Shown: in pieces, positions 1,012 to 15,373 of the stretch | How positions within the stretch are numbered: position 1 is the stretch's first letter | Layout of the letters: every line of letters starts with the position of its first letter | Source of the DNA: Alphaproteobacteria bacterium | GTDB lineage: Bacteria; Pseudomonadota; Alphaproteobacteria; UBA9219 | Length of the DNA: 32,249 bases | Direction: 5' to 3' | NCBI GenBank assembly: GCA_028866275.1 | Contig: JAGWIK010000021.1 | Span: 1-32,249, forward strand | The notes under the pieces: generated by a model | Told to the model about the DNA's origin: nothing | What the model saw: the letters and a program-made list of their open reading frames with translations, nothing else | Database searches by the model: none | Translations under genes and position numbers: made by a program

Positions 1012-1494
1012 TCATCCCCTGTTCCACAACCGCGCTTCCGCCGCGCGCCGGCGCGCCAGGCCGCCGAACACTTCGCCATTGGCGCGGTTCCACCGCATCA
1101 ATTGCGCCGGAACCTGTTCGTACCAGCCGCGATTGAGCAGTTTTAACAAAGTCGAGGATTCCAGATTGGCGATCCCGACATTGAAGGTAAAACACACCAA
1201 TGCCGAAAATTGGTTGTCCGACAAAGGCACGGCGGCCAATCGCGTCACGGCGCGTTCGAACAAACGCAAATCCTCGTCCAGCAATTGTTCGGCTTCGGCC
1301 GGCGTGATGCGCATGCCCGCGCGCACCGTGCGCGTATGGCCATAGCCGATCGTCCATATTTTTCCGGGGCACAGATAGGGCGTCAGATGCAACCCTTCGA
1401 ACGATTTAATCAGGTCGATGCCGTCGTCGTTGATGCGGCGTGGAAAAACGGTCGCGGCGGTGGGAACGCCGCCCGGCGTTGCGGAAATATCCAT
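1012..1494 (-). CDS. Phage endolysin, GH24 muramidase
   Basis: A lysozyme-fold muramidase that cleaves peptidoglycan glycan strands at lysis. The catalytic pattern Glu-8aa-(Asp/Cys)-5aa-Thr is visible: E33 in SFEGLHLTPY, C42 in LCPGK and T48 in WTIGYGHT. The Cys variant at the second position is known in phage lysozymes. The family's later segments (FNVGIANLESSTLLKLLN and GGLARRRAAEARLW) are present. Of two adjacent ATGs (1497 and 1494), 1494 is chosen because AGGAG sits five bases upstream; a further start at 1536 would overlap the previous gene. There is no signal peptide or N-terminal membrane helix, so export probably depends on a holin. The 160-aa length is normal for the family. Confidence 0.92.
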   Translation of the reverse strand: MDISATPGGVPTAATVFPRRINDDGIDLIKSFEGLHLTPYLCPGKIWTIGYGHTRTVRAGMRITPAEAEQLLDEDLRLFERAVTRLAAVPLSDNQFSALVCFTFNVGIANLESSTLLKLLNRGWYEQVPAQLMRWNRANGEVFGGLARRRAAEARLWNRG

Positions 1495-1508
1495 CATGAC
1501 TCCTGACC

Positions 1509-2102
1509 TTATGCTTTGCTGATGCGCACGCGCCATGTGCCCGACGCCAATGTCACGGCGCTGCCGGTCGAATTGACCAAACGGATAACCGCGCTGTTGG
1601 CGGCGTTGACGTAAGCGGTGGCCTGAACGCCCTGCAGATCATAAGGCGCGGCCACGGCGGCAAAATCGCCCAACGCCGCGCCGGTGACGGTAATCGCCGC
1701 CGACGTCGCGCCGGAAGACGCCGCAATCGCGCCGGGATTCCACGTCGCCGTGCCGTCGATTTTCGGCGTGTCCAGCAAGGCCCAGGCCGAACCGGTATAA
1801 TATAAAAACCGGTTGCCGTTGCGCGTCCACGCCACCCATCCCGCCGCCGGCGTCTTGATCGACCATCCGCCGTAATATCCCGCCACGCAATTGGCATATC
1901 CCGTCCACGCCCCCGTGGGCGACGCGGCGATAATGTAACTGTCGCCGGTGGCGGGCGACGCCGGCGGCGTTGCGATGGTGTAATCGATGACCGACGGTTG
2001 AACCAGAAAATCGATATCGTTCAACGCGGCGTTATGGGTGATTTCCTTTTGCGCCTGCGACGACGCGATATAGCTTAACGCCAGCTTGGGCGATGTTGTC
2101 AT
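1509..2102 (-). CDS. DUF2793 domain tail-associated protein
   Basis: A 197-aa protein whose N-terminus reads LALSYIASSQAQKEITHN, followed by ALNDIDFLVQ. This is the hallmark of DUF2793, common in alphaproteobacterial prophages and placed just after the tail-tip gene. The domain covers roughly residues 1-110, with the typical GDSYIIA, W and GG segments. The C-terminal 85 residues are Ala/Ser/Thr-rich and probably beta-structured. It is likely a virion or tail-fibre-type surface protein; host binding is inferred. It is separated from the tail-tip gene by a 191-bp gap holding a large inverted repeat. Confidence 0.8.
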   Translation of the reverse strand: MTTSPKLALSYIASSQAQKEITHNAALNDIDFLVQPSVIDYTIATPPASPATGDSYIIAASPTGAWTGYANCVAGYYGGWSIKTPAAGWVAWTRNGNRFLYYTGSAWALLDTPKIDGTATWNPGAIAASSGATSAAITVTGAALGDFAAVAAPYDLQGVQATAYVNAANSAVIRLVNSTGSAVTLASGTWRVRISKA

Positions 2103-2293: not shown

Positions 2294-5200
2294 CTACACA
2301 ACCGCCACGCCTGCATGGCCATTGCCGTAACGCGAACTGACCTGATAAATCATGACGGTAAAGCTTGACGGAACAGACGCGCCCCAATCCGCCGTCTGTT
2401 GCGCGGCGGTGTATGTCACGGTCGGCGACGTCAGGCCGGTAAAGGCGCGCATCACGGCGCCGCCATTCATGATATCGGCTTCGTACAGTTCCTGCGGCTC
2501 GTCCAGCGGCACGTCGATATAATCGACCCATTCGGCGTTCAATCGCGCGCGCCGCGCCCATGTCAGGGTCAAATCGCCGGTGGTGCCGAGGCTGCGCGCG
2601 CCTTTGATATTGGCAGGCGACAAAGGACAGATGGTTTGCAGGCCATAGGTAAAAACATTATCGGTGGCCGTGCCCAGATTTTGTCCGGTGGCAACAGCGC
2701 GGAAATCATAGGCTATGTTGCGGTCGGTCAGTCTGGCGGCAATAAAATCCACCGCGCCATTCTGCAACAGCACGAAATCCTCGCCGGCGGCGTGTGATCC
2801 CGTCGCGCTTTCCGTGCCGCGCCGTCCGCGCAGCAGATTGCTTAATTGATAAAGGCCGGGGCCGATCAGCGTAGCGGTCTGGAACTGGATAATCTCGCGG
2901 CCCAGCAGGGCCGCATTGGCGCCGTTGGTCATGTCGATGAAGCCGCAACTCGACAGGCTGCCTTGCGTCACCTGCACCGTCACGCTGTTGGCGTTATCGG
3001 CATAATAACCCGACCCGTCGCCCAGAACAGTGGCCGCAATGCCCGCCGTCGCCGCCAGCTGCAGCGCGCCGATGGCATCGTATGAAACGCCGTCGCTCGA
3101 CCGCATGACCGTCGCGCCGTTCCACCCTGCATGGGCCGTGGCGGTGACGTAAACGCCGGCTTCGTCATCGCTCGACCGCAACAACGGCAAATCCATCATG
3201 TATAAAACCGGCGGGGATGATGTCATGGCCGCGGCGGCCAGATTCCGTCCGCCATCCGCCACCGCCGCGCTGGCCAATGTCGCGGCGTAATTGTAAAAAC
3301 CTTCGACCTGCAACAACCCGCCGCTTTGCGTGACGGACGCGATACGCAGATTATTGCCCGTGCCGAGATCGATGACATCGCCGGGGTCGAGCGCAAGCCA
3401 CGCGCGCGATAATGAAACGCGCACCAAGTCGCGCTCCGCCCACATGGTGTAAAGCCGCGCTTCGGCGACCTGTTTGGCGGTTTCGGCGTCGCAAATAACG
3501 GGCAGGGATATTTTTTGTACCGCGCGCGCCGCCGTCGCGATGCGCCGCGCGCGTTGGCTGTTGACTTCAAAATTGCGGCCGGGATCGATGTAATCGACGT
3601 CGATTTCGCGCGGCAGATCCATTTCCTGCGCGCGTTGCGTCAACAGGCCCGGCGGCTGTGTCTTGCCGTCGAAGGCGGCGCGCCATTCGGCGCTGGCAAC
3701 GGTGGCCACTGCATTGCCGCCGCGCGGCACGGCGACCAACATGCCGTCGCTTTCCACCAGATCGAACGGGGCATAGGCCTGTAACGGTTCGATGGCGCTG
3801 CGCGCGCTCATCGGTTCCGATAAAACATAACCTTGCACTGTGTCGGCATCCAGCGCCGACACATTGTAATCGGCGGCCGCATAACCGGCGCGGTTCAGGA
3901 TGTCGGTGACAATGGCGGCGATGCTGCCGTCGGCGTTGCGTTGCAAAACCGCGCATTGTTCGATGTCGTATGAAAACCCGCCTTCGCCGACGACCAATAA
4001 ACGTCCGGCATCCAACCGCGTCGCGTTGAAATAATTGACGATGGCCGCACCGCCCGAAACCGTGGCGGCGTCCAGCGACAAAGCGAACGACCCGTTGCCA
4101 AGCATGATTTCCGACAAACGGAAATTGCCTTCGTAAACGCTGCGCCCCGCCACGATGATACGGTCGCCATAAAATGCCGGCGCGTTGGCCGTGCCCGTGC
4201 CGTAACTGTTGGTGAAAATTTGCCACGCGCGCGTTATGGTCGCCGCTGTCGCCGTGGGTTCGAACGACATCATGCGCATGTCGGCGACGTTCCCGTAAAA
4301 CAATGTCCATTCGCCGCTGGCGGTGGGGATGAAACAGGCCGACGGGCCGCTGCCTGTCCCTAAGGATAGGCCGGACGCGACGGTATAGACGCCGCCCAAC
4401 GCCACGGCCCCGCCGCGCCACGTCACCAGCCGCGCCTGCAAAGTCAGCGTATTGGCGACGTTGTCAATCCAGACATAGGCCAACAGCCCGTCGGCATAGG
4501 GCGTGAAGGCCGCGCCGTAAAACACCGCCGTTGTCGATGTGCCGCCCCATAATGGTGTGAACCCCAGATCGGTGACGCCGGTTCCGGCGCGCGCGAAAAT
4601 ATGCAGCCCGCGATTGCCGCCGGACGCATCGTCAATCGCGAAATGCAAAGCATCGATCCAGCCGATAGGCTTGATGCTCGACGACCGCGACAGCGCCGCG
4701 CCGTAAACCGCGCCGAATGTCTGCGCCTGCGTGTCGTAAATCGCAAAAAAATGCGACATGCCCGACGCGTTTTGCAGATACAGCGCGATAAACCGCCCGT
4801 CGGGCGACAAGGCCCATGCGCAATCCGACGGCGACGCGGCGGTGAAAGACGCGCTGGCGACGCTGTACAGCAAAGCGGGGGTATCGGTGCCGACATCGAA
4901 CGCCTTGACGGTAAAGGTCACGCTGCTGCCGCTGGCGCTGTATCCGCCGATCAAAACCGTCTGCGCGCCGTCGCCGGACAGAATGACGGGCGCCATCGTG
5001 CCGCTGACCATCCCCATATTCCGTTGCGATAGCTGCGCATCGACATTGCCTTGCAAGACGGGGTTCGCGCTGACGGTGGACGGCGTGATCTCGAATGTCA
5101 GGTTGGGCAGGCGATTGCCAAAAGTCGACAATTGCAGATTGTCGAACACGATATAGGCGATGCCCTGATAGGACGGCACGGAACCCGCGCCGAGGATCGA

Positions 5201-5695
5201 CTGCATGAACGCGTCCGGCGTCTGGCCCGCCGCGCCGGTGTAAATCACCGCGCTGTCGCACAGGCCGGGCGACCACAGGCCGTTTTGGTAAATGATCGTG
5301 CTGTCGGCCCATATGGTGGCGATGCCGCCGATGGGGCCCGCGCAAATGCCGACCGCGCAATGCACGCTGTAGGTATAGGTCGTCGTCGTCACCGCGGAAC
5401 CGCCGCCTTTGCCGACCGAACTGTCATGCTGCGTCTGCATCAAATCGGTCGACCAGATAACATTGCCCGCCACCCGCGCATGGCCGTAAATGACGGGAAT
5501 GCCCGCGCCATAGCGCGAATCCTGCACCGACAGATTTTGCAATTGCGGGCCGGTGACATGCGTGCCCAGCCCCAATTTGCCGTCGACCACGCCGCCGAAT
5601 TGCGCGCCAAGACCCCCCAGCACCGCGCCGCCGATACCGGGCAGCAGGGCGTTGCCGACGGCAGCGCCGGCGGTTTTCAAAATGATGGATGCCAT
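2294..5695 (-). CDS. Phage tail-tip / host-specificity protein (GTA gp15-like) with inserted propeller-like segment
   Basis: An 1133-aa protein. The N-terminus is Gly/Ala-rich and hydrophobic (1-45), then a conserved block (about 50-85; NLSVQDSRYGAGIPVIYG) typical of GTA gp15-type and alphaproteobacterial prophage tail proteins. A Phage-tail_3-type region lies at about 580-800 (around YAPFDLVESDGMLVAVPRGG), and a beta-rich, fibronectin-like C-terminus follows. Residues about 235-575 differ from the usual plan. They carry repeats such as AWALSPDGRFIALYLQ, which read like beta-propeller blades and occupy the place where GTA gp15 has its TIM-barrel domain. It is expected at the tail tip, contacting the host surface. 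It lies 16 bases downstream of the NlpC/P60 gene. Confidence 0.85.
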   Translation of the reverse strand: MASIILKTAGAAVGNALLPGIGGAVLGGLGAQFGGVVDGKLGLGTHVTGPQLQNLSVQDSRYGAGIPVIYGHARVAGNVIWSTDLMQTQHDSSVGKGGGSAVTTTTYTYSVHCAVGICAGPIGGIATIWADSTIIYQNGLWSPGLCDSAVIYTGAAGQTPDAFMQSILGAGSVPSYQGIAYIVFDNLQLSTFGNRLPNLTFEITPSTVSANPVLQGNVDAQLSQRNMGMVSGTMAPVILSGDGAQTVLIGGYSASGSSVTFTVKAFDVGTDTPALLYSVASASFTAASPSDCAWALSPDGRFIALYLQNASGMSHFFAIYDTQAQTFGAVYGAALSRSSSIKPIGWIDALHFAIDDASGGNRGLHIFARAGTGVTDLGFTPLWGGTSTTAVFYGAAFTPYADGLLAYVWIDNVANTLTLQARLVTWRGGAVALGGVYTVASGLSLGTGSGPSACFIPTASGEWTLFYGNVADMRMMSFEPTATAATITRAWQIFTNSYGTGTANAPAFYGDRIIVAGRSVYEGNFRLSEIMLGNGSFALSLDAATVSGGAAIVNYFNATRLDAGRLLVVGEGGFSYDIEQCAVLQRNADGSIAAIVTDILNRAGYAAADYNVSALDADTVQGYVLSEPMSARSAIEPLQAYAPFDLVESDGMLVAVPRGGNAVATVASAEWRAAFDGKTQPPGLLTQRAQEMDLPREIDVDYIDPGRNFEVNSQRARRIATAARAVQKISLPVICDAETAKQVAEARLYTMWAERDLVRVSLSRAWLALDPGDVIDLGTGNNLRIASVTQSGGLLQVEGFYNYAATLASAAVADGGRNLAAAAMTSSPPVLYMMDLPLLRSSDDEAGVYVTATAHAGWNGATVMRSSDGVSYDAIGALQLAATAGIAATVLGDGSGYYADNANSVTVQVTQGSLSSCGFIDMTNGANAALLGREIIQFQTATLIGPGLYQLSNLLRGRRGTESATGSHAAGEDFVLLQNGAVDFIAARLTDRNIAYDFRAVATGQNLGTATDNVFTYGLQTICPLSPANIKGARSLGTTGDLTLTWARRARLNAEWVDYIDVPLDEPQELYEADIMNGGAVMRAFTGLTSPTVTYTAAQQTADWGASVPSSFTVMIYQVSSRYGNGHAGVAVV

Positions 5696-5711: not shown

Positions 5712-6119
5712 TTATTTGCGGAAACGGTAAATGCCGGTCAGGCGGTGTTGCCAATAAATGCCGATACTGGTTTCGACGACTTTGCCGGCGGGCGCGAAGG
5801 CGTGGATCATCGTGTCCGCCGATGTCGCCAGCGCGACATGCTGCGGCTGGCCGTCGTAACGGAATAACAAAATGTCGCCCGCCATTATCGCGCCCACGGC
5901 TTCCGCGCCGTGCGCGTGCAAAGCCTCCACCAAGCTGAAACCGTCGGGACGGCGGCCGTAATCGTTGCGGTCTTGCACATCCTTGCCCGCCGCGCGCAAT
6001 GCGATAACAACCAAACCGATGCAATCCAGACCCGCGCCGGGCGCGCGGCCCTGATGATGAAAAGGCGTGTTCAGGCAGGCGCGCGCGGCGGCGGTCATGC
6101 GTTCCGTGTCGATCGTCAT
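5712..6119 (-). CDS. NlpC/P60 family tail peptidase (GTA gp14-like)
   Basis: A 135-aa cysteine peptidase of the NlpC/P60 fold, the usual tail-associated cell-wall hydrolase in GTA and lambdoid tails. The catalytic Cys is C33 in the motif GLDCIGLV and the His is in QPQHVAL (H94). The GDILLFRY strand between them is also typical. The chosen ATG at 6119 overlaps the stop of the DUF2163 gene (ATGA), the usual layout for this pair. The reading frame is open upstream to 6506 but that part is antisense-like and has no homology. It probably cleaves peptide bonds in the murein during DNA entry. Confidence 0.88.
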   Translation of the reverse strand: MTIDTERMTAAARACLNTPFHHQGRAPGAGLDCIGLVVIALRAAGKDVQDRNDYGRRPDGFSLVEALHAHGAEAVGAIMAGDILLFRYDGQPQHVALATSADTMIHAFAPAGKVVETSIGIYWQHRLTGIYRFRK

Positions 6120-6958
6120 GTCGGATACTGCAAAATATTGCCCACACCGGGCACATAAGGGAAACCGCCGAAATGCGCGGCGTTGGCGAACGTGTTTTTG
6201 CAGGTGGTAAAACGTTTGTCGCAGCCGGGATAGACGCTGTAGGCATCGCCCGCCTGAACGGCATTCGGCATCGGCAGCCACAGGGTGAAAGTCTGCGTCG
6301 GCAGATCCCAGTTTTTGACTTCCATGCTTTGTCCCGCATTGGCGCCGCTGGCCCATGTCAATTTGCCGTAATTGAACGCGCCGGTCGCCGCCATTTGCGC
6401 GCTGTCGGCGAATGTCGCGCTGTCGGTCGCGGCGGTCACGCTGCCCGTCACGGTTTGCGCGGCGATATCGACGCCGCATCGCGCGTCGCCCAGATCGAAC
6501 CGGCATTCCGGCGTGTAATAATCGCCGACGGGCCGTTGCAATAAATCATGCAGGCCGCGCAATTCGGCGACATAATGGGTGACGGCGCGCGTCACCTGGC
6601 CCAGCCAGCCGCGGCGCAGCTGCACCGCGCCCATGGTCGTATCGGCCCAGTTGCAGGCATAAACATCGACGCGCGCGAAATCGTAGAATCCCGCGGCGAT
6701 GTCGGCGTCGGCGATGTCGGCGCTGTCCAGAATGCCGGTGATGTCGAGATTATCGACCGCCAGCCCGGCGCGGCTTTCGATGGAACTGGGCGTCACCGCG
6801 CCGTCGGCCAGATAGGTGACGTCGTCCAGCGTCATGTCGTTGTCATGCGTGGTAAAGGCCTTGATAACCCCGTCGGCGCGCGTGATTTTGACGAGATAAG
6901 CCAGCGTCGTCAGTTCGCCCGACAGATGGGTTTGCAAAGCGGCGGAAATATTTTTCAT
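6116..6958 (-). CDS. DUF2163 tail hub protein (GTA gp13-like, BR0599 C-terminus)
   Basis: A 280-aa protein. The N-terminal part (about 1-165) matches DUF2163, including LAYLVKITRADG, FTTHDNDM and RRGWLGQVTR. The C-terminal part matches the phage BR0599 domain, ending in PGCDKRFTTCKNTFANA and FGGFPYVPG. Four cysteines are placed as in lambda gpL-type hub proteins: C152 and C161 in ECRFDLGDARCG, and C246 and C253 in GCDKRFTTC. In that family they hold an iron-sulfur cluster, so the same is likely here. It sits at the distal end of the tail tube, between DUF2460 and the NlpC/P60 peptidase. Confidence 0.9.
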   Translation of the reverse strand: MKNISAALQTHLSGELTTLAYLVKITRADGVIKAFTTHDNDMTLDDVTYLADGAVTPSSIESRAGLAVDNLDITGILDSADIADADIAAGFYDFARVDVYACNWADTTMGAVQLRRGWLGQVTRAVTHYVAELRGLHDLLQRPVGDYYTPECRFDLGDARCGVDIAAQTVTGSVTAATDSATFADSAQMAATGAFNYGKLTWASGANAGQSMEVKNWDLPTQTFTLWLPMPNAVQAGDAYSVYPGCDKRFTTCKNTFANAAHFGGFPYVPGVGNILQYPT

Positions 6959-6961
6959 GTT

Positions 6962-7588
6962 TCAGACGCGAATTTCGACAATCGGCACATCGGCCTGATA
7001 GGCGGCATAATTCTCGGCGGACAGCGACAGCACATCGGTATCAAAACGCACCGGCACGTCGAAGGTAAAACCCGCCGTGATGCTTTGCCCCGCGGCGGGC
7101 GCGGTGGCGAAGGTGACAAGCCCGGTCGTCGTGTCGATGCTCCATCCGGTCGTTTGCTGCGCGCCGTCGATGCCGATCATGACGCTGCCTGCCACCGGTT
7201 TGGCGATGGGCCGCGCCAGCGTGACGCCGCCGCTGCTGTAATTCTTGATCAGCTGGAACAGCAATGTCGCGCCGTCGCCGGTGGCGATGGTCTGGTCGGT
7301 GAAAGCGGGCGCTGAGATATTGTCCGCCGCGCTGGAATAATCGCTCCAGTCCTTCAGGCGGAACCCGCGCGCGCGGCCGGCGCGGGCGTGGAAGAAATTC
7401 AATAACGCGGCGGCGTCGGCGGCCGAACGCACCGCGTCGCGCGCGTCATAGGTGCGGCGCGCCTGCGCCCAGTTCTGGTTGCGGCGTTCGTATCCGCTGT
7501 CGATGACGATGATTTCGGTGGAAAAATTCGGCCCGCCGCGCGACCCGAAACCGACGCGCAGGGGGATTTCGATATCGTCGAATGCCAT
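6962..7588 (-). CDS. DUF2460 distal tail protein (GTA gp12-like)
   Basis: A 208-aa protein with the DUF2460 signature. The start (MAFDDIEIPLRVGFGSRGGP) is followed by ERRNQNWAQARRTYDARDAV, a helical region, RARGFRLKDWSDY, and a C-terminal beta region ending VDVPVRFDTD-like (DVPVRFDTDVLSLS). DUF2460 proteins are the distal tail proteins of GTAs and related siphoviruses, linking tube and hub. The start at 7588 overlaps the previous stop (ATGA). The frame is open further upstream, but only antisense-like sequence would be added. Confidence 0.9.
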   Translation of the reverse strand: MAFDDIEIPLRVGFGSRGGPNFSTEIIVIDSGYERRNQNWAQARRTYDARDAVRSAADAAALLNFFHARAGRARGFRLKDWSDYSSAADNISAPAFTDQTIATGDGATLLFQLIKNYSSGGVTLARPIAKPVAGSVMIGIDGAQQTTGWSIDTTTGLVTFATAPAAGQSITAGFTFDVPVRFDTDVLSLSAENYAAYQADVPIVEIRV

Positions 7589-7926
7589 CAGCGTATCCTC
7601 TGGCTTGCGGTCAGGGCGGCATATTGCGCGCCGGCCATTTGCGCCGCGCTGGATAAAAATCCGCCGGCTGCGTCCCTGATCGTGCCCGACGCGCCGCCGC
7701 CGGTGAAAAAATTCACCGTGTCGAACGCGTTCGTCAGCCACGGCGTCGATGTCGTTTTTTTGGTTTTGGCGCGTTTGGCGGCGATGCGCGGGTCTTTGAT
7801 AGCGCGGTTCAACCCGGCGACGCTGTCGCGCAGGGCGCGCGCCTCGCGCAACATCAGGGCGTTTTCGCCGCGCGCCAGTTTCGCGGTCGTCGCGGCCAGC
7901 GCGTCGATGGAACGGGGTGTTTTCAT
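7588..7926 (-). CDS. Unrecognised 112-aa protein in the tape-measure position
   Basis: No family is recognised. The N-terminal 55 residues are helical and Ala/Arg/Lys-rich. A short Lys/Thr linker follows, then a hydrophobic Gly/Ala-rich C-terminal half (about 63-112; VNFFTGGGASGTIRDAAGGF). It lies between the DUF3168 tail terminator and DUF2460, where GTAs and lambdoid phages have the tail tube protein, two chaperones and a tape measure, normally over 1.5 kb in total. It is too short for a usual tape measure. It may be a very reduced tape measure, a remnant left by deletion, or an unrelated tail protein. Its ATG starts one base after the previous stop, so it is very likely translated. Confidence 0.6.
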   Translation of the reverse strand: MKTPRSIDALAATTAKLARGENALMLREARALRDSVAGLNRAIKDPRIAAKRAKTKKTTSTPWLTNAFDTVNFFTGGGASGTIRDAAGGFLSSAAQMAGAQYAALTASQRIR

Positions 7927-7927
7927 G

Positions 7928-8338
7928 TCATGTGCTTTGCGTGATGATGGAAAAACGCGCGGCGGCGTGGGTGGTCAGCCCGTCGCTGTCCAGCGCGATG
8001 TCGCCGCTGTGAAATTCGCAGGACAGAAAAACCTGATCCGTCACGGTCAAGACGGCGCGATGCAGCGCGGCATACAAAGCGGCGAAAATAGCGCGCGCTT
8101 CCATGCCGCCGCGATAACGCGACCAGATGTCGAGCGTCACGATCTGTTCGAACCCGGTTTCGGTTTTGGCGTCGTGCGGCAGAATATGCGACGCGCCATA
8201 GGTGACATAGGGAAACGCCGCCCCCGGCGGGACATGGTCGTACAAAGCGGGCGTCGCGCCCAGCACGCCTTGCACGCCCGCGTCCGCGGCCAAGGCCGCG
8301 ATGACGGCCTGTTGCACGGCGAATAAAGCGTCGGTCAT
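7928..8338 (-). CDS. DUF3168 tail terminator (GTA gp8-like)
   Basis: A 136-aa protein of the DUF3168 family. The pattern includes ALFAVQQAVIAALAADAGV, a YDHVPPGAAFPYVTYG strand, and TLDIWSRYRGGMEAR before a C-terminal helix and strands. In GTAs and HK97-like phages this protein caps the tail tube where it joins the head. It overlaps the head closure gene by four bases (ATGA), fitting the standard order connector, closure, terminator. No tail tube gene follows, which is unusual. Confidence 0.88.
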   Translation of the reverse strand: MTDALFAVQQAVIAALAADAGVQGVLGATPALYDHVPPGAAFPYVTYGASHILPHDAKTETGFEQIVTLDIWSRYRGGMEARAIFAALYAALHRAVLTVTDQVFLSCEFHSGDIALDSDGLTTHAAARFSIITQST

Positions 8339-8664
8339 AAAGGCCCGCCTTCCTCGGCCAGAATGGTGATGAAATGGTCGCTTTCGTCGTTATTCATCAC
8401 GGCATGAATGTTGAAAGCGCGGGTGTTGTACAAAACCCGCATGTCGGACGTGATGGCGACGTCGCCGCGCCACCGCAGGGTGATTTTGTGCGTCACCCGT
8501 CCTTCCAGATGCGCGGCGGCAAAGGTTTCGCGGCCCGATACCGGCATGATATCGGCCCATACCGTCGCCAGCGTGACCCATGCCAGCGCATAGCCGCCCG
8601 CGCCGTCGGGCGTCGGCTGTTCCTGCTGGATGGAAATCTGTTTACGCATATCGCCGATTTTCAT
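8335..8664 (-). CDS. Phage head closure protein (SPP1 gp16 / GTA gp7-like)
   Basis: A 109-aa protein starting MKIGDMRKQISIQQ, with the typical DGAGGYALAWVTLATVWADI, SGRETFAAAH, the THKITLRWRGD strand and a C-terminal HFITILAEE segment. This is the head-tail adaptor or stopper family that seals the portal after packaging. The length is normal. It precedes the DUF3168 gene with a four-base overlap and follows the connector gene by 51 bases. Confidence 0.9.
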   Translation of the reverse strand: MKIGDMRKQISIQQEQPTPDGAGGYALAWVTLATVWADIMPVSGRETFAAAHLEGRVTHKITLRWRGDVAITSDMRVLYNTRAFNIHAVMNNDESDHFITILAEEGGPL

Positions 8665-8715: not shown

Positions 8716-9387
8716 TTACGCGCCCGAATAGCGAATGCGATAGGGGTCGAGCAGGGCCTCGATCACCAACGGCACGGGCACGGCTGGCATAATGACCGTG
8801 CCGCCGCGCGCGCTGGGCGCGGTGGCGGCGTCGCCGCGATGTTCGTACCAATGCGCGACCAGTTGACGAATGGCGGTTTTGATGGGCTCCGGCACCGCCG
8901 TGCCGTCATCGCCGTATCCCGCGACATACTGGATGACGATGCCGTTGGTCAGGCGCGTCGGCACCGGCCATACCGCGCCCATTCTTAAAGCAAGCCGCCC
9001 CGGTTCGCGCACGGTATCGACGAAATAATTGCCGCTGTCCCATAGCGTGGCGTTGTCGCCGTCGTCGTAATAGGTGACCGAGGCGACGCTTTGCAGCGGC
9101 GCGCGCGGCAGGCTGATATAATTGACCTTGTCCAGCCCCGTGATCGGCCCTTGCCGCACGCCGTCCCACCATTTTTCCACGGCGCCGGGCCACAGGTCGA
9201 GCGCCATCTGCCATGTCTGGGTGATAAAGGCGCGGCCCGTATATTTTTCCGCCCATTGCCGCGCGCCGGTGATCAACGCCGTCACCAGCGTGTCGTCGGC
9301 CGTCGTGTCGATGCGCGCCTGTTGTTTGGCGTCGGCCAGCAGCACGGGTTCGGCGGCCGGCGGGGTGAGGAGAGCGAAAGATGTCAT
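8716..9387 (-). CDS. Phage head-tail connector (HK97 gp6-like, phiE125 gp8 family)
   Basis: A 223-aa protein. The N-terminal half has helices typical of gp6-like connectors (LLADAKQQARIDTTADDTLV, then ITGARQWAEKYTGRAFITQTW). The middle beta region has the conserved SVTYYDDGDNAT, and the helical C-terminus has IKTAIRQLVAHWYEHRGD. These proteins form a ring beneath the portal. The gene comes immediately after an intrinsic-terminator-like hairpin at 9410-9437, so its expression may depend on read-through. Confidence 0.9.
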   Translation of the reverse strand: MTSFALLTPPAAEPVLLADAKQQARIDTTADDTLVTALITGARQWAEKYTGRAFITQTWQMALDLWPGAVEKWWDGVRQGPITGLDKVNYISLPRAPLQSVASVTYYDDGDNATLWDSGNYFVDTVREPGRLALRMGAVWPVPTRLTNGIVIQYVAGYGDDGTAVPEPIKTAIRQLVAHWYEHRGDAATAPSARGGTVIMPAVPVPLVIEALLDPYRIRYSGA

Positions 9388-9455: not shown

Positions 9456-9863
9456 TTATTGCGTCGGCGCGTTGCGCGGGTAGCCGGCGATGACATAGGC
9501 GGCGCTGGCCGCGCCCGATGTCGCGCCCGTCGTCGTCATGACGATTTGCAGGTAACGCAGGCTGCCGATATAGCCGATCTGCTGCACGCTGTTCGCGCCC
9601 GCGCTGCTGTTGACGGCGGACAGGTTGGCGGCGGCGTCGAGATCGGTGCCGTAGACGCACGGAACCCATGTCACGCCGTCCGCCGACTGGTTGACCGACG
9701 GCGTGTGCGTGCCGTCGGTATAGGCGCCGAACGCGACGGTTATGACGGCGCCGTCATAGCCGCGCAGATCGACAGTCGCGCCGGTGGCGGTGCCGTTGAC
9801 GCGTACGGCGGGGGGCAGGGATTGGGTCATCATCTGGTTACGAAGAAGGTCGCGGATAGCCAT
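9456..9863 (-). CDS. Small beta-rich virion protein, possible capsid decoration or fibre
   Basis: A 135-aa protein just downstream of the major capsid gene. After a short charged N-terminus it is Thr/Gly/Ala-rich with alternating strand-like segments (VDLRGYDGAVITVAFGAYTD, SADGVTWVPC, YLQIVMTTTG). This reads like the beta-sandwich small proteins found after capsid genes in many siphoviruses. An AGGAG lies eight bases before the ATG. A capsid-decorating role is inferred; no named family is recognised. A major tail protein is a possible alternative, but the position upstream of the connector argues against it. Confidence 0.65.
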   Translation of the reverse strand: MAIRDLLRNQMMTQSLPPAVRVNGTATGATVDLRGYDGAVITVAFGAYTDGTHTPSVNQSADGVTWVPCVYGTDLDAAANLSAVNSSAGANSVQQIGYIGSLRYLQIVMTTTGATSGAASAAYVIAGYPRNAPTQ

Positions 9864-9899: not shown

Positions 9900-11120
9900 T
9901 TACGATGCCGAGAAGCTCAGCAACTTGATCGCTTCGAAATTCACCACGTCGCCGCCGGTGCGTTTGGTGCAGCGGAACTTGATAAAGGGCGCGCCGGTAT
10001 AGGGGTCGCGCAGGATGCGCATGCCGATGCGGTCGACGATCGTATAGCCTTCCTTGAAGCTGCCGAACGCCAGCGAGAAGCTGCCGGCCGCAACCGCGGG
10101 CATGTCTTCGCCCAGCACGACCGGGAAGCCCAGCAACGTGGCGGGTTGTCCCTGTTGCAGCCCCGGCTGCCAGATATAGGCCTGCGTGGTGTTTTCCTTG
10201 AATTTGCGGATCATGTCGGCGACGGCGCGCGGCATGACCCATACCGCGTCGGGGTGGTAACCGACGCGCAATTGATGCATCAGGTCGAACAGGCAGTCGG
10301 CCGGATTGGACGACGCGAAGGCGCCCGCCGCGCCTGTGGCGACATATTGCAACACGCCCCATGGCCGCGTGGCGTCGGCGATAGGCTGGGCGGTATAAGT
10401 GGTGAATCCGCGCGGCATGCCGATGCCGTCGCCGACGACAAAGGCGTTGTTTTCGGCGCGCGAGAATTTGGCCGAGATTTTATTGATCAGCCATTCCTCG
10501 ACATTGATGAAGGCGTCGTCCAGCAGTTTCTGCGTCGCCTTGGGCTGCGCGTATAATTCATGCGCCGGGATGCGGATGCGGCCCAGAAGCCCTTCGTTGG
10601 TGTCGGCCGGCACGCCGAGTTCCGAAATCCATTGCGCCACGGGTTCGTTGGTGTCGCGCAGCATTTCGACGGCTTCGGTCGATATCGTCATCACGGTGGA
10701 AATCTGGCGCATCGGCGTGGTGTCGTATTGGCGCGTCACGATGCGGTCGGACAGTTCCGGCGGCACCATATATCCGCCTTCGGCGTTGTTGATGATTTCC
10801 AACGCTTTGGATTCATAGGCGGCCAGGGGGGATTCAAGCCCTTTGGCGACGTAATTCAGAAACGCGGTTTTATGCGCGCTGTCGCCGGCGGCCGCGCCGC
10901 CGTTCTTGCCGGGGCGGCGCAGCGCGGTTTTAAGGTTCGCGATGTCGTCTTGCAGCTTGTTGATGCTGCTGTCCATGCGGCCCAGCTGTTCGCTGTCCAG
11001 AACGTCGCCGCTGCCGCGCCGTTCGATGTCGGACAGGCGGCGGTCGTTGACGGATTTATACTCTTCGAATGCCCGGGCCAGCGTTTCGGTGGCCGAGCGC
11101 ACTTCGCTCATTTCGATCAT
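9900..11120 (-). CDS. HK97-fold major capsid protein (GTA gp5-like)
   Basis: A 406-aa capsid protein. Residues about 1-100 are helical and coiled-coil-like (ALRRP, SINKLQDDIANLK), matching the delta/scaffold domain that the prohead protease removes. The HK97 fold follows, with GGYMVPPELSDRI, VDNEPVAQW-type (DTNEPVAQWISELG), INVEEWLINKI, ENNAFVVGDG, a P-loop-like GMPRGFTTY and the C-terminal KFRCTKRTGGDVVNFEAIKLL. A Shine-Dalgarno AAGGAAA lies seven bases before the ATG. It follows the protease by 21 bases. It forms the icosahedral shell that holds the packaged DNA. Confidence 0.95.
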   Translation of the reverse strand: MIEMSEVRSATETLARAFEEYKSVNDRRLSDIERRGSGDVLDSEQLGRMDSSINKLQDDIANLKTALRRPGKNGGAAAGDSAHKTAFLNYVAKGLESPLAAYESKALEIINNAEGGYMVPPELSDRIVTRQYDTTPMRQISTVMTISTEAVEMLRDTNEPVAQWISELGVPADTNEGLLGRIRIPAHELYAQPKATQKLLDDAFINVEEWLINKISAKFSRAENNAFVVGDGIGMPRGFTTYTAQPIADATRPWGVLQYVATGAAGAFASSNPADCLFDLMHQLRVGYHPDAVWVMPRAVADMIRKFKENTTQAYIWQPGLQQGQPATLLGFPVVLGEDMPAVAAGSFSLAFGSFKEGYTIVDRIGMRILRDPYTGAPFIKFRCTKRTGGDVVNFEAIKLLSFSAS

Positions 11121-11141: not shown

Positions 11142-11699
11142 TTATTTGTCGGTCAGGGCGCGCGCCGCGCGGTATAACCGGGCGGCGGCGTTTTTCAGAT
11201 CATCCTGTTGCCGGTTGTCGCCGGTTCCCGCTTTTTTGACTTCGCTGACGCGGGCCGCTTCGTTGGCGGGGAATGTCACCAGCGAGATTTCGAACAAATC
11301 GACATCGGTCAGCAGCCGCGCTTTTTTCGCGGCGTCGATGCGGCTCGACACCACGCGGTAGCCGATCGACAGGCCGGACAGCGCGCCGATTTTCAGAAGT
11401 TCGTAGGCTTCCGCGCCTTTTTGCGCGCGCAGGGCCAGCCGTCCTTCGACGCGCAGCCCGTTGGCATCTTCGGCGATCTGTTGCCAGATGCCGATGGGTT
11501 GCGTCGGGTCGTGCATCCACAGCAATGCGGGGGCGCGGCCCTGTTGACGCCATTTCGACAGGGTGCGGCGGAACGCGCCCGCCGCGACGATTTCATTTTG
11601 TTGATCGAGCTCGCCGAACACGCTGGCATAGCCCGTGAAAATCCCGTCGCCGCCCAATGTCTTGACATTGAGCGCGCAGGACATGTGTTTGATGTCCAT
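11142..11699 (-). CDS. HK97 family prohead protease (GTA gp4-like)
   Basis: A 185-aa serine protease that removes the capsid delta domain during maturation. The family marks are FTGYASVFGELDQQNEIVAAGAF-type start (residues 21-43), the catalytic His in LLWMHDPTQPIG (H63), the catalytic Ser in GALSGLSIGY (S111) and the acidic strand DLFEISLVTFPANEAA (E137). Length is typical. It lies directly upstream of the capsid gene and directly downstream of an intrinsic-terminator-like hairpin. Confidence 0.95.
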   Translation of the reverse strand: MDIKHMSCALNVKTLGGDGIFTGYASVFGELDQQNEIVAAGAFRRTLSKWRQQGRAPALLWMHDPTQPIGIWQQIAEDANGLRVEGRLALRAQKGAEAYELLKIGALSGLSIGYRVVSSRIDAAKKARLLTDVDLFEISLVTFPANEAARVSEVKKAGTGDNRQQDDLKNAAARLYRAARALTDK

Positions 11700-12120: not shown

Positions 12121-13839
12121 TTATCCTGTGAGCGCCCCGGACGGAAATGGAATATGGGTTTCCGGCCGCGTGCCTGGTTTCATTGTTGACGGGTTAATGG
12201 GCTGCCATCCGCCATTATCCATAGGTTTTTCAAGTTTCCAATAGCCATTCGGATACTGTTCGGTTGGATCCATTTTTCGCACCCTCCACCCATCTGGAAT
12301 ATCGGTAGGCGGCTCTTGAGGCGGATTTGTCGGTTGCGCGAAGTTCGGTGAGGGTTTGGGCGCGCCAACCTCCGGCTCTTCCATCGGCGGCGGCAATTCT
12401 TCGATTGGCGGGATTTCCTGTACAAGCCGGTCGCCGGGGCCGAAGGTGAATTGTCCATTTGTCGGGTCGCGGTAAGGGTTGAATTTGACGTTAAAAAAAG
12501 CGGCGGGATGTCCAGCCTCCTTATGCGGGCCGTCGAGTCCGTCGTCGGCCGCGCTGTTTTCGTCGCCGTCGTTTTCGCCGCCGGTGTTGATGCCGCCGGT
12601 GTTGATGCCGCCCGGACTATCGCCGCCCGGTATCGGGCCGTAGCCCGCCGCCTGGCGTTTTTCATTGGGTGTCAGGAAGGTGGCGTTTTGCAATTTGTCC
12701 CATTGTGCCTGTCGTTTGTCGGTCAGGGCCGGGATTGCGTCGGGGTCGAAGTCGAGTTCGGGAATGCCGTCGCGGGTTTCGAACATCGGGCTTAGCCAGT
12801 GATCGACGCCCGCGATGATGCGGGTGACAAGCGGCAGCGCGGTTTCTTCGTAAAAAGCGAGGCGCGCCTGTTCGACATTGGCGTAAGTCTGCGCGTCGGG
12901 AATGCCGATCAGCTGCGCCGGAATGCCGAAAGCCAGCGCGATGTCGCGCGCCGCCGCGGAGCGCCCCGCCAGCCAGTCCATGTCTTTGGGGCTGAGGCTC
13001 ATTTCGCGCCAGTCCAGCCCGCCTTCGAGGATAAGGGGGCGTCCGGCGTTGCGGTCGCCCTGATACAGCATGCCCATTTCTTCGCGCAGCCGTTGCATCT
13101 GGTCGTCGGACAGGGTCGAAGGCCCGCCGTCTTTGGGCGCGTAAATCAACGCGCCGGACGGCCGCGCGCCCTGATTGAGCAGCGCCTGATTCCAAGCACC
13201 CGCGGCGTTGTGCTGGTCGATGGATAGCAAGGCCGCTTCCATCGGGGCGAGCCCGTACCAGTCGTCGAGCGGGTTGAAGGTTTTCAGATGCAAAATGTCG
13301 CAATCGCCGGTGACGGGGTCGGCGTTCCATGTCGTGGTCTGGCCGTTGACGCTGTATTGATAGGCTTGCGGCATGCCGCTGGGCCCCGGCACGATTTTCA
13401 TGCGGTCGGGGCGCAGGCTGTACAGTTCGATGGGCGCGGCATCGTCGCGCGGGCGGATGGCTTCGATATAGGCGTTGCCGGAAATCTGCAGATTGGCGTA
13501 GATATTTTCCATAAAACTGACGCCGTCCTGCAACGGGTTGGGATGCGCCAGCAGGTCGAGCAGCGGGTGCGTGTCGATTTCGTGCCCGTGCGCGTCGTAT
13601 AAAAGCCACGGCACGGCGGCGCAGGCTGTCGCGATATGCATGACGCAGCGATAGGCGACGCTGTTTTTGCGGAAACCCTCTTCGGCCAGATTGACGGATT
13701 TGCGCGGCGTCCATTGCGGCTGGCCGACATGGCTCCATGCGATCATGGGGCTGGCGCGGCTGGCTTTTTGCGCAGGCTGGCCTTGCGCAGCGGTTGATTT
13801 CGGGCGCAGGAAGGATTTCATGAGTCGGGGGAGTCTCAT
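12121..13839 (-). CDS. Phage portal protein with toxin-like C-terminal extension
   Basis: A 572-aa protein. Residues about 30-405 are a HK97/lambda-type portal: [84 protein letters not shown] and the ending [20 protein letters not shown] usual portal would end here. It continues with a GGINT repeat and acidic linker (406-450), then [16 protein letters not shown] (454-469), a Pro-rich stalk (476-513) and a 59-aa terminal module (514-572; [20 protein letters not shown]). The second half is less GC-rich. This resembles the pre-toxin motif and tip of polymorphic toxins. The activity of the tip cannot be named. Confidence 0.88.
12577..12606. repeat. Two tandem 15-bp repeats in the portal linker
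   Basis: Two exact 15-bp copies, followed by a partial third, encode GGINT repeats on the minus strand. They mark the boundary between the portal core and its C-terminal extension. Confidence 0.8.
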
Positions 13840-13872: not shown

Positions 13873-15201
13873 TTATAAGCTGCGGATGCGCGGTTCGCCG
13901 CGCGGTGTTTCGGAAAGGTCGGTGAGCGCCCAGACCAGCGCGTCGACGCGGTCGGGCGATTTTTCCATGTGGCCGCTGGCGGTAAAACGGCACATCTGGT
14001 CTTCGAGAAGCGGCAACGGCCCGACATGGCGCACGCGCCGTTGTTCGTAAAGCGCGGCGACGGGCAGGGCGCGGTCGACCTTGTTGCGCAAGGCCCGCAC
14101 GGGTTTGAACAGGATATGCGGCGCTTTATGGCGCAGGATTTTTTCGACCAGATCGCCGCCGGCGTTGGTTTCGGCCACGATCATGTGCGCATCCATGTCG
14201 GTGTACAGCATCACCGCGCGTTCGGCCCATGCGTCGGGCGTGTATTTGCCCGACCAGTCGGACAGCACGTATATCAGCCCGTCCGCGCCGCGTCCGGCGG
14301 CGATGATGCCGGTTTCGTCGCTGCCCGACCCGCTGGACAAAGCGGGGTCGATGGCCACCACGATGCGGCGCAGGTCGGGGGCCGTGTCGACGCGCAATGT
14401 GTCAAGCTGGGCATGGTTCCACAACGCGCCGTCGGTGTCGGTCAGAAGTTCGGCGTCGAGTTCCTGCCGGCCCAGCCTTGTGCCCGCGTAACGTTCCGTT
14501 AATTGGCGCATGACATGGGGCGACAGGTTTTCGGCATTGTCTTTAGTACGGCCGTGGGTCAGGTGGACGTCGTCGTTTTTGCGTTTGAATAAATCGCGCA
14601 GCATTTCAGTGTTCCTTGGCGTTGTCGTGACAATGACGCGCGGGCTGTCGCCCAGGCGCAGCCCGAACCAGAGTTGGTCAAAAACCTCGCGGCCGCCGTC
14701 CGGCCCCGGCCACGCGCCGACTTCGTCGCACCACGCGCGGTGATGTTGCGGGCCGCGCAGCCTTTCGGGCCGGTCGGCGGAAAATAATTTGAACCGGCTG
14801 CCGTTGGTCAGCAGCAATTCACCCATCGACCGGTTCCATTTCGCGACGCAGGACGGCGGCAGCGCGCGTAACAATCCGCTTTCGCCCTCGACGCAGGTGT
14901 CGCGCGCGTCGGCATAGGTCGGCGCCACGATGGCGACGCGCACATTATTGTGCCACAGCGCGTAATACGCGACGTCCTCGGCCCCCGTGCGCGTTTTGCC
15001 CCAGCCGCGCCCCGCCAGAATCAGCCAGATGCGCCAGTCATTCCCCGGCGGCGTGATCTGTTGCGGGCGCGCCGCTTTCAGCCAGCGCATCCGGTTCACA
15101 AAGGCCTGCAAGCCGGACAGCGGCAAATTCGGCAAGCAGGCCGCGCGCGTCGTCCAGCGCGGCGCGTCGTTCGTCGGCTTCGCGGCGTCGGGTTTCGTCA
15201 T
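13873..15201 (-). CDS. Phage terminase large subunit (GTA gp2-like)
   Basis: A 442-aa DNA-packaging motor. The ATPase domain has Walker A AGRGWGKT (63-70), Walker B RAWCDE (D159, E160) and a coupling motif VTTTPR (191-196). The RNase H-like nuclease domain has D285 in VAIDPALS, E344 in VAETNAGGD and D417/D420 near DRVDALVWAL. All expected catalytic acids are present, so it should be active. A weak GAAAGAAG site precedes the ATG at 15201, which overlaps the small terminase-like gene by 134-164 bases depending on its end; a later ATG at 15090 is an alternative because homology begins around there. Confidence 0.93.
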   Translation of the reverse strand: MTKPDAAKPTNDAPRWTTRAACLPNLPLSGLQAFVNRMRWLKAARPQQITPPGNDWRIWLILAGRGWGKTRTGAEDVAYYALWHNNVRVAIVAPTYADARDTCVEGESGLLRALPPSCVAKWNRSMGELLLTNGSRFKLFSADRPERLRGPQHHRAWCDEVGAWPGPDGGREVFDQLWFGLRLGDSPRVIVTTTPRNTEMLRDLFKRKNDDVHLTHGRTKDNAENLSPHVMRQLTERYAGTRLGRQELDAELLTDTDGALWNHAQLDTLRVDTAPDLRRIVVAIDPALSSGSGSDETGIIAAGRGADGLIYVLSDWSGKYTPDAWAERAVMLYTDMDAHMIVAETNAGGDLVEKILRHKAPHILFKPVRALRNKVDRALPVAALYEQRRVRHVGPLPLLEDQMCRFTASGHMEKSPDRVDALVWALTDLSETPRGEPRIRSL

Positions 15202-15334
15202 CTTCTTTCGGGGCGAGGCGTTCGAGCAGGATTTTGGCGGCCTGAATCCGCGACGTGTCGCTGTCGCTGGATTGCATAACGAGATTGAGCGTCGCCAGAA
15301 TGGTGGCGGTGTCCGGTGTTTCGAGGTCTGTCAT
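15038..15334 (-). CDS. Small terminase-like / DNA-packaging protein
   Basis: A 98-aa helical, charged protein upstream of the large terminase, where the small subunit normally sits. The middle (about 25-65; SRIQAAKILLERLAPKEDDE, then RRREADERRAALDDARGLLAEF) resembles short proteins ahead of terminase genes in alphaproteobacterial prophages. The ATG at 15334 is preferred over a TTG at 15358; neither has a strong Shine-Dalgarno. Its 3' end overlaps the large terminase in another frame. A promoter lies 40 bases upstream. Function is inferred from position. Confidence 0.6.
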   Translation of the reverse strand: MTDLETPDTATILATLNLVMQSSDSDTSRIQAAKILLERLAPKEDDETRRREADERRAALDDARGLLAEFAAVRLAGLCEPDALAESGAPATDHAAGE

Positions 15335-15373
15335 TCGGGAAATTCGTTCGGGACGCAATGCGCCGTGGCACTG

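Follow-up and report, generated by a model that had tools for sequence, protein, structure and literature searches.

How can a head–tail gene cluster that is otherwise complete do without a tail tube? The question is raised by a stretch of DNA, called the window here, that is the entire 32,249-base contig C16 of an alphaproteobacterial genome, G000 (2.19 Mb, 78 contigs). Its minus strand carries a cluster in the order terminase, portal, 117-amino-acid (aa) gene, protease, capsid, 135-aa protein, adaptor, stopper, terminator, 112-aa protein, DUF2460 distal tail protein, DUF2163 hub, NlpC peptidase, megatron, DUF2793 fibre and lysozyme. This is the gene order of the head–tail cluster of RcGTA, the gene transfer agent (GTA) of Rhodobacter capsulatus, and the ordered homologues from terminase to megatron class the cluster, by sequence, as a type I (RcGTA-like) alphaproteobacterial head–tail cluster. 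No counterpart of the RcGTA tail tube (g9), of the chaperones (g10 and g10.1) or of the full tape measure (g11) was found in it. We consider it probable, at roughly two in three, that the cluster encodes a type I GTA particle whose tail has been cut to its ends: the tube and both chaperones would have been lost and the tape measure shrunk.

The interval between the terminator and distal tail genes

Four genes of the cluster frame the interval in question:

8335..8664, minus strand: stopper / head closure protein (Pfam Phage_HCP 1.1e-27; RcGTA stopper Rcc01689 2.9e-5)
7928..8338, minus strand: tail terminator (PF11367 Tail_completion_gp17, Pfam 1.6e-24; PHROG 'tail terminator' 3.9e-17; weak SPP1 gp17 structure matches 0.024-0.026)
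7588..7926, minus strand: putative miniature tape measure protein of 112 aa (N-terminal helix plus tape-measure C-terminal anchor)
6962..7588, minus strand: distal tail protein, DUF2460 (Pfam 1.3e-75; TIGR02217 6.7e-67; RcGTA Rcc01695 by phmmer 5.9e-58)

PF11367 is presumably the former DUF3168. The 112-aa open reading frame (ORF; 7926-7588) is the sole gene between the terminator and DUF2460 genes. Read from the sequence, the stopper and terminator genes share an ATGA overlap, a single base separates the terminator gene from the 112-aa gene, and the latter overlaps the DUF2460 gene by one base. Third-position GC content is 0.79 in the 112-aa gene and 0.71-0.85 in the other cluster genes, except for the 117-aa gene (0.58). 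Whole-genome searches of G000 for the tube (PF06199 and profile A1), the chaperones (PF11836 and PF09550) and a GTA-type tape measure (profile A5) found none of them.

Control loci show what this interval usually holds. Among the best 80 DUF2460 loci of the matches listed, all from titled genome records, 27 have a stopper match and 53 have none; in 25 of the 27 a tube match precedes DUF2460. The two controls with a stopper and no tube match are L191, in which terminator and DUF2460 are 7.3 kb apart, and L124, which appears to come from the window's own order. From the end of the stopper gene to DUF2460 the distance is about 2.0-2.3 kb in the Rhodobacterales control loci, as against about 0.75 kb in the window. 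The absence of the tube, the chaperones and a full-length tape measure from the window cluster is genuine; an assembly gap is ruled out because 12 relatives also retain a protein of 98-135 aa between terminator and DUF2460.

Where the order keeps its tube genes

Relatives were genomes or metagenomic contigs. The start of the 16S gene, together with 500 bases preceding it, comes closest to Azospirillum among plasmid records, at about 88%, which supports no finer placement than Alphaproteobacteria. The 33 genomes of the order fall into families f1 (24, the window's included), f2 (5) and f3 (4), and DUF2460 was found at E <=1e-30 in 24 of the 33. Of the 24 f1 genomes, 16 have a best DUF2460 copy of cluster type, with an identity of about 55% or above, and G007 has only a more distant copy. 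PF06199 detects a tube in six genomes, namely all five of f2 and G029 of f3; profile A1, which was built with the G027 tube itself, adds that of G027, whose protein, searched alone, also passes the PF06199 cut-off (1.8e-6). The count is thus 5/5 in f2 and 2/4 in f3. The f2 tube (from G024) matches the solved RcGTA tube, Rcc01691 (4.1e-18). Both chaperone families are likewise present in 5/5 f2 genomes and 0/28 others, PF09550 being above its cut-off in four of the five. The stopper (PF05521) was found in 23 of 33 genomes, G027 and G029 not among them, and the terminator (PF11367) in 15 of 33, 14 of them above the cut-off and G027 with a weak match (6.9e-4) on a contig other than that of its cluster. 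Judged by homology search, the sister families identify the lost genes, the tube being present in f2 and undetected throughout the window's family.

A tape measure of GTA length, as detected by profile A5, occurs only in three f2 genomes (G024, G026 and G028), where it has 212-224 aa and lies between DUF2163 and the peptidase; A5 has no match in G032, whose compared stretch stops short of that part, or in G030, represented by a short contig only. In f1 and f3 it matches nothing but long frames of phage type (433-872 codons) and a single piece of 136 codons in G023. In the f2 clusters L094, L095 and L096 the tape measure has moved from before DUF2460 to before NlpC, and a reverse-strand, lipoprotein-like ORF lies beside it.

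A tube might nonetheless be present and made from another protein: the terminator polymerised into a stack of rings, an unrelated protein of tube fold encoded elsewhere, or a protein supplied by a prophage. We judge this improbable, at odds well short of those for a tail cut to its ends. It is made conceivable by the single fold reported to be common to the RcGTA stopper, terminator, tube and distal tail proteins (PMC7296036), by the spread of the RcGTA genes themselves over five loci in one account (PMC10883770), and by two other DUF2460 loci in G000, with tape measures of 1006 and 1012 aa. Against it, neither G000 nor the other 23 f1 genomes gave a PF06199 or A1 match (sequence profiles; no structure-based search was made), and the tape measure has shrunk, as expected with the tube gone. 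The terminator can hardly serve as the tube of f1 clade A (described below) because PF11367 was not found in its seven genomes. A homologous tube elsewhere in the genome is thus unsupported by PF06199 and A1.

The 135-aa protein (9456-9863) was a second candidate, since the earlier note on this DNA had held that a tube found there would overturn the gap. It was rejected: in f2 clusters its orthologue adjoins a true tube, and because those tube-bearing clusters hold both, it is not the tube. Its predicted model is a beta sandwich (predicted local distance difference test, pLDDT, 71.6), and a fold search with the model returned mostly generic beta-sandwich matches. Against a background of many generic matches, it weakly resembles a capsid decoration protein (8cjz_B, E 0.083) and the capsid entry of a Bordetella phage (3j4u_H, E 1.1e-3), and it is probably a capsid decoration protein.

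The same note had described an otherwise complete cluster with neither tube, chaperone nor normal tape measure, in which the terminator is followed by one 112-aa gene and then DUF2460. Family and whole-genome searches bear out the first point, and the gene order is confirmed and common to relatives. Its tight junctions hold in the window, with one-base gap and overlaps, but several relatives carry inserted ORFs there. Its view that this is not recent decay agrees with a gap that is old and common to relatives. It had also asked whether close relatives show a simple deletion; relatives do carry a deletion, but an old, family-wide one in which the tape measure is shortened as well.

A 112-aa protein with a tape-measure C-terminus

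The RcGTA tape measure is described as lying inside the tube and distal tail rings and consisting of a helix of 113 residues, strands and loops over 83 residues, and a C-terminal helix of 20 residues (PMC7296036). This description suggests which parts the 112-aa protein may have kept or lost. Searches with the protein itself returned nothing from Pfam and PHROGs up to E 1, from NCBIfam up to 0.1 or from PDB sequences up to 1, and the PF06199 tube profile matches neither it nor the 135-aa protein. Its family comprises 13 complete sequences, from the window, 7 genomes and 5 viral-collection contigs, all of them open frames of 98 to 135 aa; a fourteenth, in G015, is cut by a contig end. The N-terminal region and the C-terminus are conserved. 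A class-wide search with the 112-aa alignment matched only G000 and G013 among 385 genomes drawn from the class.

For scoring the C-terminus, a profile was built from the final 24 residues of 26 tape measures, of which 24 come from titled records, two from f2 and none from the 112-aa family. Scores were anchored at the C-terminus, and 5240 other C-termini, from ORFs of at least 120 codons in all loci gathered, served as controls. The window protein scores 14.3, a value equalled or passed by one in 20,000 shuffles of its own C-terminus. Among the controls 25 score at least as high, all tape measure-like by position: for 24 of them a DUF2460 gene follows no more than 1.1 kb downstream of their end, and the remaining one is the tape measure of G026 (f2). 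The top non-tape-measure control scores 0.3, which 10 of the 13 complete family members exceed. Of the 280 window ORFs with 40 codons or more, only that of the 112-aa protein is positive, and no ORF is positive in the eight clade A loci scanned. Two of three short f3 proteins also exceed that top control, G025 being the one that does not (-11.8); hhalign gave no match between the short f3 proteins and tape measures.

Structure prediction, a check that the earlier note had proposed, gives a confident helix at residues 7-42 (AlphaFold) and a C-terminal helix of low confidence; the N-terminal helix is far shorter than the 113 residues of its RcGTA counterpart. With the tape-measure signature at its C-terminus, the 112-aa protein is best read as a miniature tape measure, in which a short N-terminal helix and a C-terminal anchor would remain and most of the middle would be lost. 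By the same sequence comparisons, it is not the tail tube.

Possible steps of reduction

A tree of six joined proteins places f2 together (support 100), f1 together (100) and f3 with f1 (100); the whole-order node has support 69 and the f3 grouping 34. Clade B of f1 (support 84) contains the window, G002, G004, G005, G006, G012, G013, G015 and six viral-collection contigs, and the mini protein is present wherever the region is sufficiently covered. It is partial in G015, whose contig starts inside it, and in contig L015 the 533 bases before DUF2460 hold a different ORF and then the contig ends. G008, which is outside the tree, has both terminator and mini protein. Additional ORFs are inserted before or after the mini protein in G002, G006, G008 and G004, the last with its terminator on another contig.

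Clade A of f1 (support 100) contains G014, G016, G017, G018, G020, G022, G023 and contig L020. Upstream sequence is available for six members (G014, G017, G020, G022, G023 and L020). The interval from stopper to DUF2460 yielded neither a terminator nor a mini protein in any of the six, and the two genes abut or nearly abut in five. In G020 (L104, about 7034-7354), the stopper frame has one in-frame stop codon and about 0.2 kb follows it. Family f3 shows other combinations. No tube was found in G025, which has stopper, terminator and a 121-aa protein. G029 and G027 carry a tube together with a protein of 115 or 128 aa, but neither stopper nor cluster terminator was found in them.

These arrangements could well record a GTA in stepwise conversion from long-tailed to nearly tail-less, a reading in which we have moderate confidence. 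Family f2 would be at the full stage, f3 and half of f1 would keep one or two ring proteins with a mini tape measure, and the other half of f1, lacking terminator and tape measure alike, would set the stopper gene beside that of the distal tail protein. Interchangeable rings of one fold would then link adaptor and tip, and a functional tail would need no tube.

Relic, prophage or gene transfer agent

Stepwise loss is also what would be seen if the cluster were a slowly decaying relic that makes no infective particles, its head and lysis genes perhaps retained for another reason. Relatives have inserted ORFs at many junctions, the G020 stopper gene is interrupted, nine of the 33 genomes yielded no DUF2460 (among them G030, which does have other cluster genes on a short contig), and in G029 no terminase was found in the stretch examined before the portal gene. 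We regard a relic as unlikely. The tail-tip genes, useless without a working tail, have full query length in most clusters uncut by a contig end, and they are under purifying selection in the window's clade. Median ratios of non-synonymous to synonymous change (pN/pS), taken over pairs of 6 to 9 members per gene with synonymous sites near saturation, are 0.23 for DUF2460, 0.27 for DUF2163, 0.33 for the terminator, 0.36 for the stopper, 0.36 for the adaptor and 0.26 for the 135-aa protein. Such conservation of tail-tip proteins in clusters that have no tube argues against a dead relic.

The relic reading also has to contend with the pattern of inheritance. Cluster-type DUF2460 is single-copy in each genome that has it, and the cluster tree follows the families, as expected of inheritance with the host. 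Among the few loci with enough upstream sequence, a CCA transferase gene lies upstream of the cluster in G000, G005 and G014, and was not found in G023 within 5 kb upstream of the terminase. Weighed as GTA or prophage, a family-following tree and a single cluster-type copy fit a GTA.

A model for the particle

We return to a type I GTA particle with its tail cut to its ends. The ancestors of the window's family would have lost the tube gene together with both chaperones, and their tape measure would have been reduced to about 100-135 residues. The particle would stack portal, adaptor, one stopper ring, one terminator ring, one distal-tail ring and the baseplate, omitting the five tube rings of RcGTA, so that the terminator would dock straight onto the distal tail ring. 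What is left of the tape measure would be the 112-aa protein. Its C-terminal helix, which is what it has in common with RcGTA g11, would have its anchor in the distal tail or baseplate, and its N-terminal helix of ~36 residues would occupy the channel through the distal-tail and terminator rings, where it would help to plug the DNA. DNA would then be delivered from a head sitting almost on a needle-like tip, the tail being essentially absent.

The dimensions can be compared. At a reported pitch of 38.3 Å, taken here as the ring spacing, five lost rings amount to about 19 nm. A helix rises 1.5 Å per residue, and its shortening from 113 to about 36 residues amounts to about 12 nm, which is of the same order of size. 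The four RcGTA ring proteins (stopper, terminator, tube and distal tail) are reported to have one common fold, with a tube of just five hexamers (PMC7296036). Three options had been offered in the earlier note. An extremely short tail is the best of them; a tube encoded elsewhere finds no support by homology, with 0/24 in f1 and the same searches positive in 7/9 sister-family genomes; and sole replacement of the tube by the 112-aa protein is not supported, given its tape-measure C-terminus.

Several points weigh against a tail reduced in this way. No particle has been seen; many of the relatives are fragmented, and some are just 62-82% complete. A tube of unrelated sequence may be encoded elsewhere. 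The control tape measures were assigned by position and length rather than by family match, and three of the 13 family members (L087, L089 and L017; -0.3 to -3.5) score below the best non-tape-measure control. When the 13-member alignment was compared with tape measures by hhalign, exactly that C-terminus aligned, at E 1.8e-4 but a probability no higher than 48.7. Profile A5, for full-length tape measures, misses the 112-aa protein of G000, AlphaFold models the C-terminal half with low confidence, and the 112-aa protein is the fastest evolving gene tested (median pN/pS 0.68, range 0.39-0.86).

Some of these observations, namely the alignment confined to the C-terminus, the miss by A5 and the fast evolution, together with the lack of any family match, would also suit an unrelated protein, for example a new tail chaperone or connector, that resembles tape measures merely at its C-terminus. 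We think this unlikely: among the controls the C-terminal signature is specific to tape measures, and in many of the GTA and phage loci examined it is borne by the gene directly before DUF2460. It is scarcely credible that the gap arose in assembly or annotation or when a single strain recently lost the genes. That reading was rejected, even though the window is one contig of a 78-contig assembly, given a small open frame before DUF2460 in 12 relatives (7 genomes and 5 viral-collection contigs) and partly in G015, and overlapping junctions in the contig interior.

Remaining genes of the cluster

The other genes with assigned functions are as follows:

13873..15201, minus strand: large terminase (Pfam Terminase_6N 9.3e-21, Terminase_6C 4.5e-14)
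12121..13839, minus strand: portal protein with C-terminal extension (Pfam Phage_portal 3.1e-84, residues 60-397 of 572)
11142..11699, minus strand: prohead protease (Pfam Peptidase_S78 1.9e-33)
9900..11120, minus strand: major capsid protein (Pfam Phage_capsid 3.7e-78)
9456..9863, minus strand: 135-aa conserved protein, probably capsid decoration, not tail tube (phrog_5707 1.6e-16)
8716..9387, minus strand: head-tail adaptor, gp6-like (Pfam PF05135 1.5e-14; PHROG head-tail adaptor 3.5e-30)
6116..6958, minus strand: baseplate hub, DUF2163 / phiJL001 Gp84 type (Pfam PF09931 7e-55, PF09356 5.7e-29)
5712..6119, minus strand: NlpC/P60 tail peptidase (Pfam NLPC_P60 8.6e-10; TIGR02219 7.1e-15, below its cut-off)
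2294..5695, minus strand: baseplate megatron-like protein (Pfam Phage-tail_3 3.5e-36, Rcc01698_C 7.5e-25; NCBIfam GTA_megatron 3.6e-160, below its cut-off)
1509..2102, minus strand: tail fibre-like DUF2793 protein (Pfam 4.2e-24)
1012..1536, minus strand: lysozyme (Pfam Phage_lysozyme 2.5e-46, scan on 1012-1491)

DUF2793 proteins are called tail fibres in one account of GTA genes (PMC10883770). Just ahead of the terminase on the minus strand, at about 15195-15335, a frame of ~46 codons is possibly a small terminase remnant. Elsewhere in the genome, L004 (G000:C40) and L005 (G000:C53) are two more phage-type tail clusters, similar to each other; the megatron-like protein of L005 seemingly has an intein-like insertion, judged by eye.

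Inserted ORFs in relatives

The ORFs inserted at junctions, such as L095 13245-13889 (G026) and L085 7060-7653 and 9368-9934 (G002), have common motifs, recognised by eye, like DPSNGQFTSG or DQPRVPAGNPDGGQWT. One contains a Colicin E5 ribonuclease domain (2e-5, just over the cut-off), and another has a weak CHAP match below the cut-off. A similar motif occurs in the C-terminal extension of the window portal protein (13839-12121), whose gene adjoins a DUF6188 gene (12115-11762). By sequence, the inserted ORFs look like exchangeable antibacterial toxin/partner modules carried in the GTA cluster.

A second site of insertion lies between the genes for the 135-aa protein and the adaptor, where an ORF of 470-540 aa is found at L018 2229-3647, L091 6858-8297, L095 6589-8199 and L097 4363-5820 (a reversed locus). 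The L018 ORF, the sole one of these scanned, has a glycosyltransferase 9-like match (1.2e-4, just under the cut-off). In L020, L092, L100 and L103 the same site holds a fibre-like-looking ORF of roughly 320-500 aa, that of L092 having no Pfam match.

Implications

More broadly, this case suggests an evolutionary route from long-tailed to nearly tail-less particles. Long and short tails are classed by their genes, and conversion between them has mostly been guessed; the related genomes seem to show intermediates, in which the tape measure shrinks as the tube vanishes. Should the particle prove functional, it would amount to a minimal DNA injector of natural origin, and whether a tail needs a tube becomes directly testable.

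Comparison with known systems

Type I GTAs have been described in Rhodobacterales, Caulobacterales, Sphingomonadales, Parvibaculales and Hyphomicrobiales (PMC9662315), and an earlier survey reports clusters in two unclassified orders as well, with one genome each (PMC6821227); those two orders could be near the window's. In the literature searched, largely outside subscription papers, we noticed no description of a tube-less type I GTA. One survey is reported to have retained only clusters with 14 of 17 RcGTA genes (PMC10883770). Such a filter would discard lineages of this kind, and GTAs may therefore be commoner than counted.

The nearest well-described system is RcGTA (g1-g15), with which the window cluster agrees in gene order between terminase and megatron, in stopper and distal tail proteins that match the solved RcGTA proteins, and in the hub, peptidase, megatron and DUF2793 fibre families. 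It differs in having no detected tube (g9) or g10 or g10.1 chaperone and in a putative tape measure of 112 rather than about 220 aa. The 112-aa protein resembles g11 in its C-terminal signature, its site before the distal tail gene and its predicted N-terminal helix, but it is about half as long, nearly all of the middle is missing, and no tube would surround it. The f2 clusters (G024, G026, G028 and G032) are orthologous and share its head genes, tip genes and 135-aa protein; in contrast to the window cluster, they keep the tube and both chaperones, and in G024, G026 and G028 a 212-224-aa tape measure has been relocated between DUF2163 and the peptidase.

A final comparison is with podoviruses such as P22, which has a tail needle. 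The neck and tip genes of the window cluster are of siphovirus/GTA type, unlike those of podoviruses, and family scans of the main cluster genes named no podovirus tail family. If the particle is as proposed, however, it would be podovirus-like in having a head that nearly touches the tail tip and a rod that plugs the channel. The RcGTA tape measure has itself been reported to be similar to the P22 needle (PMC7296036).

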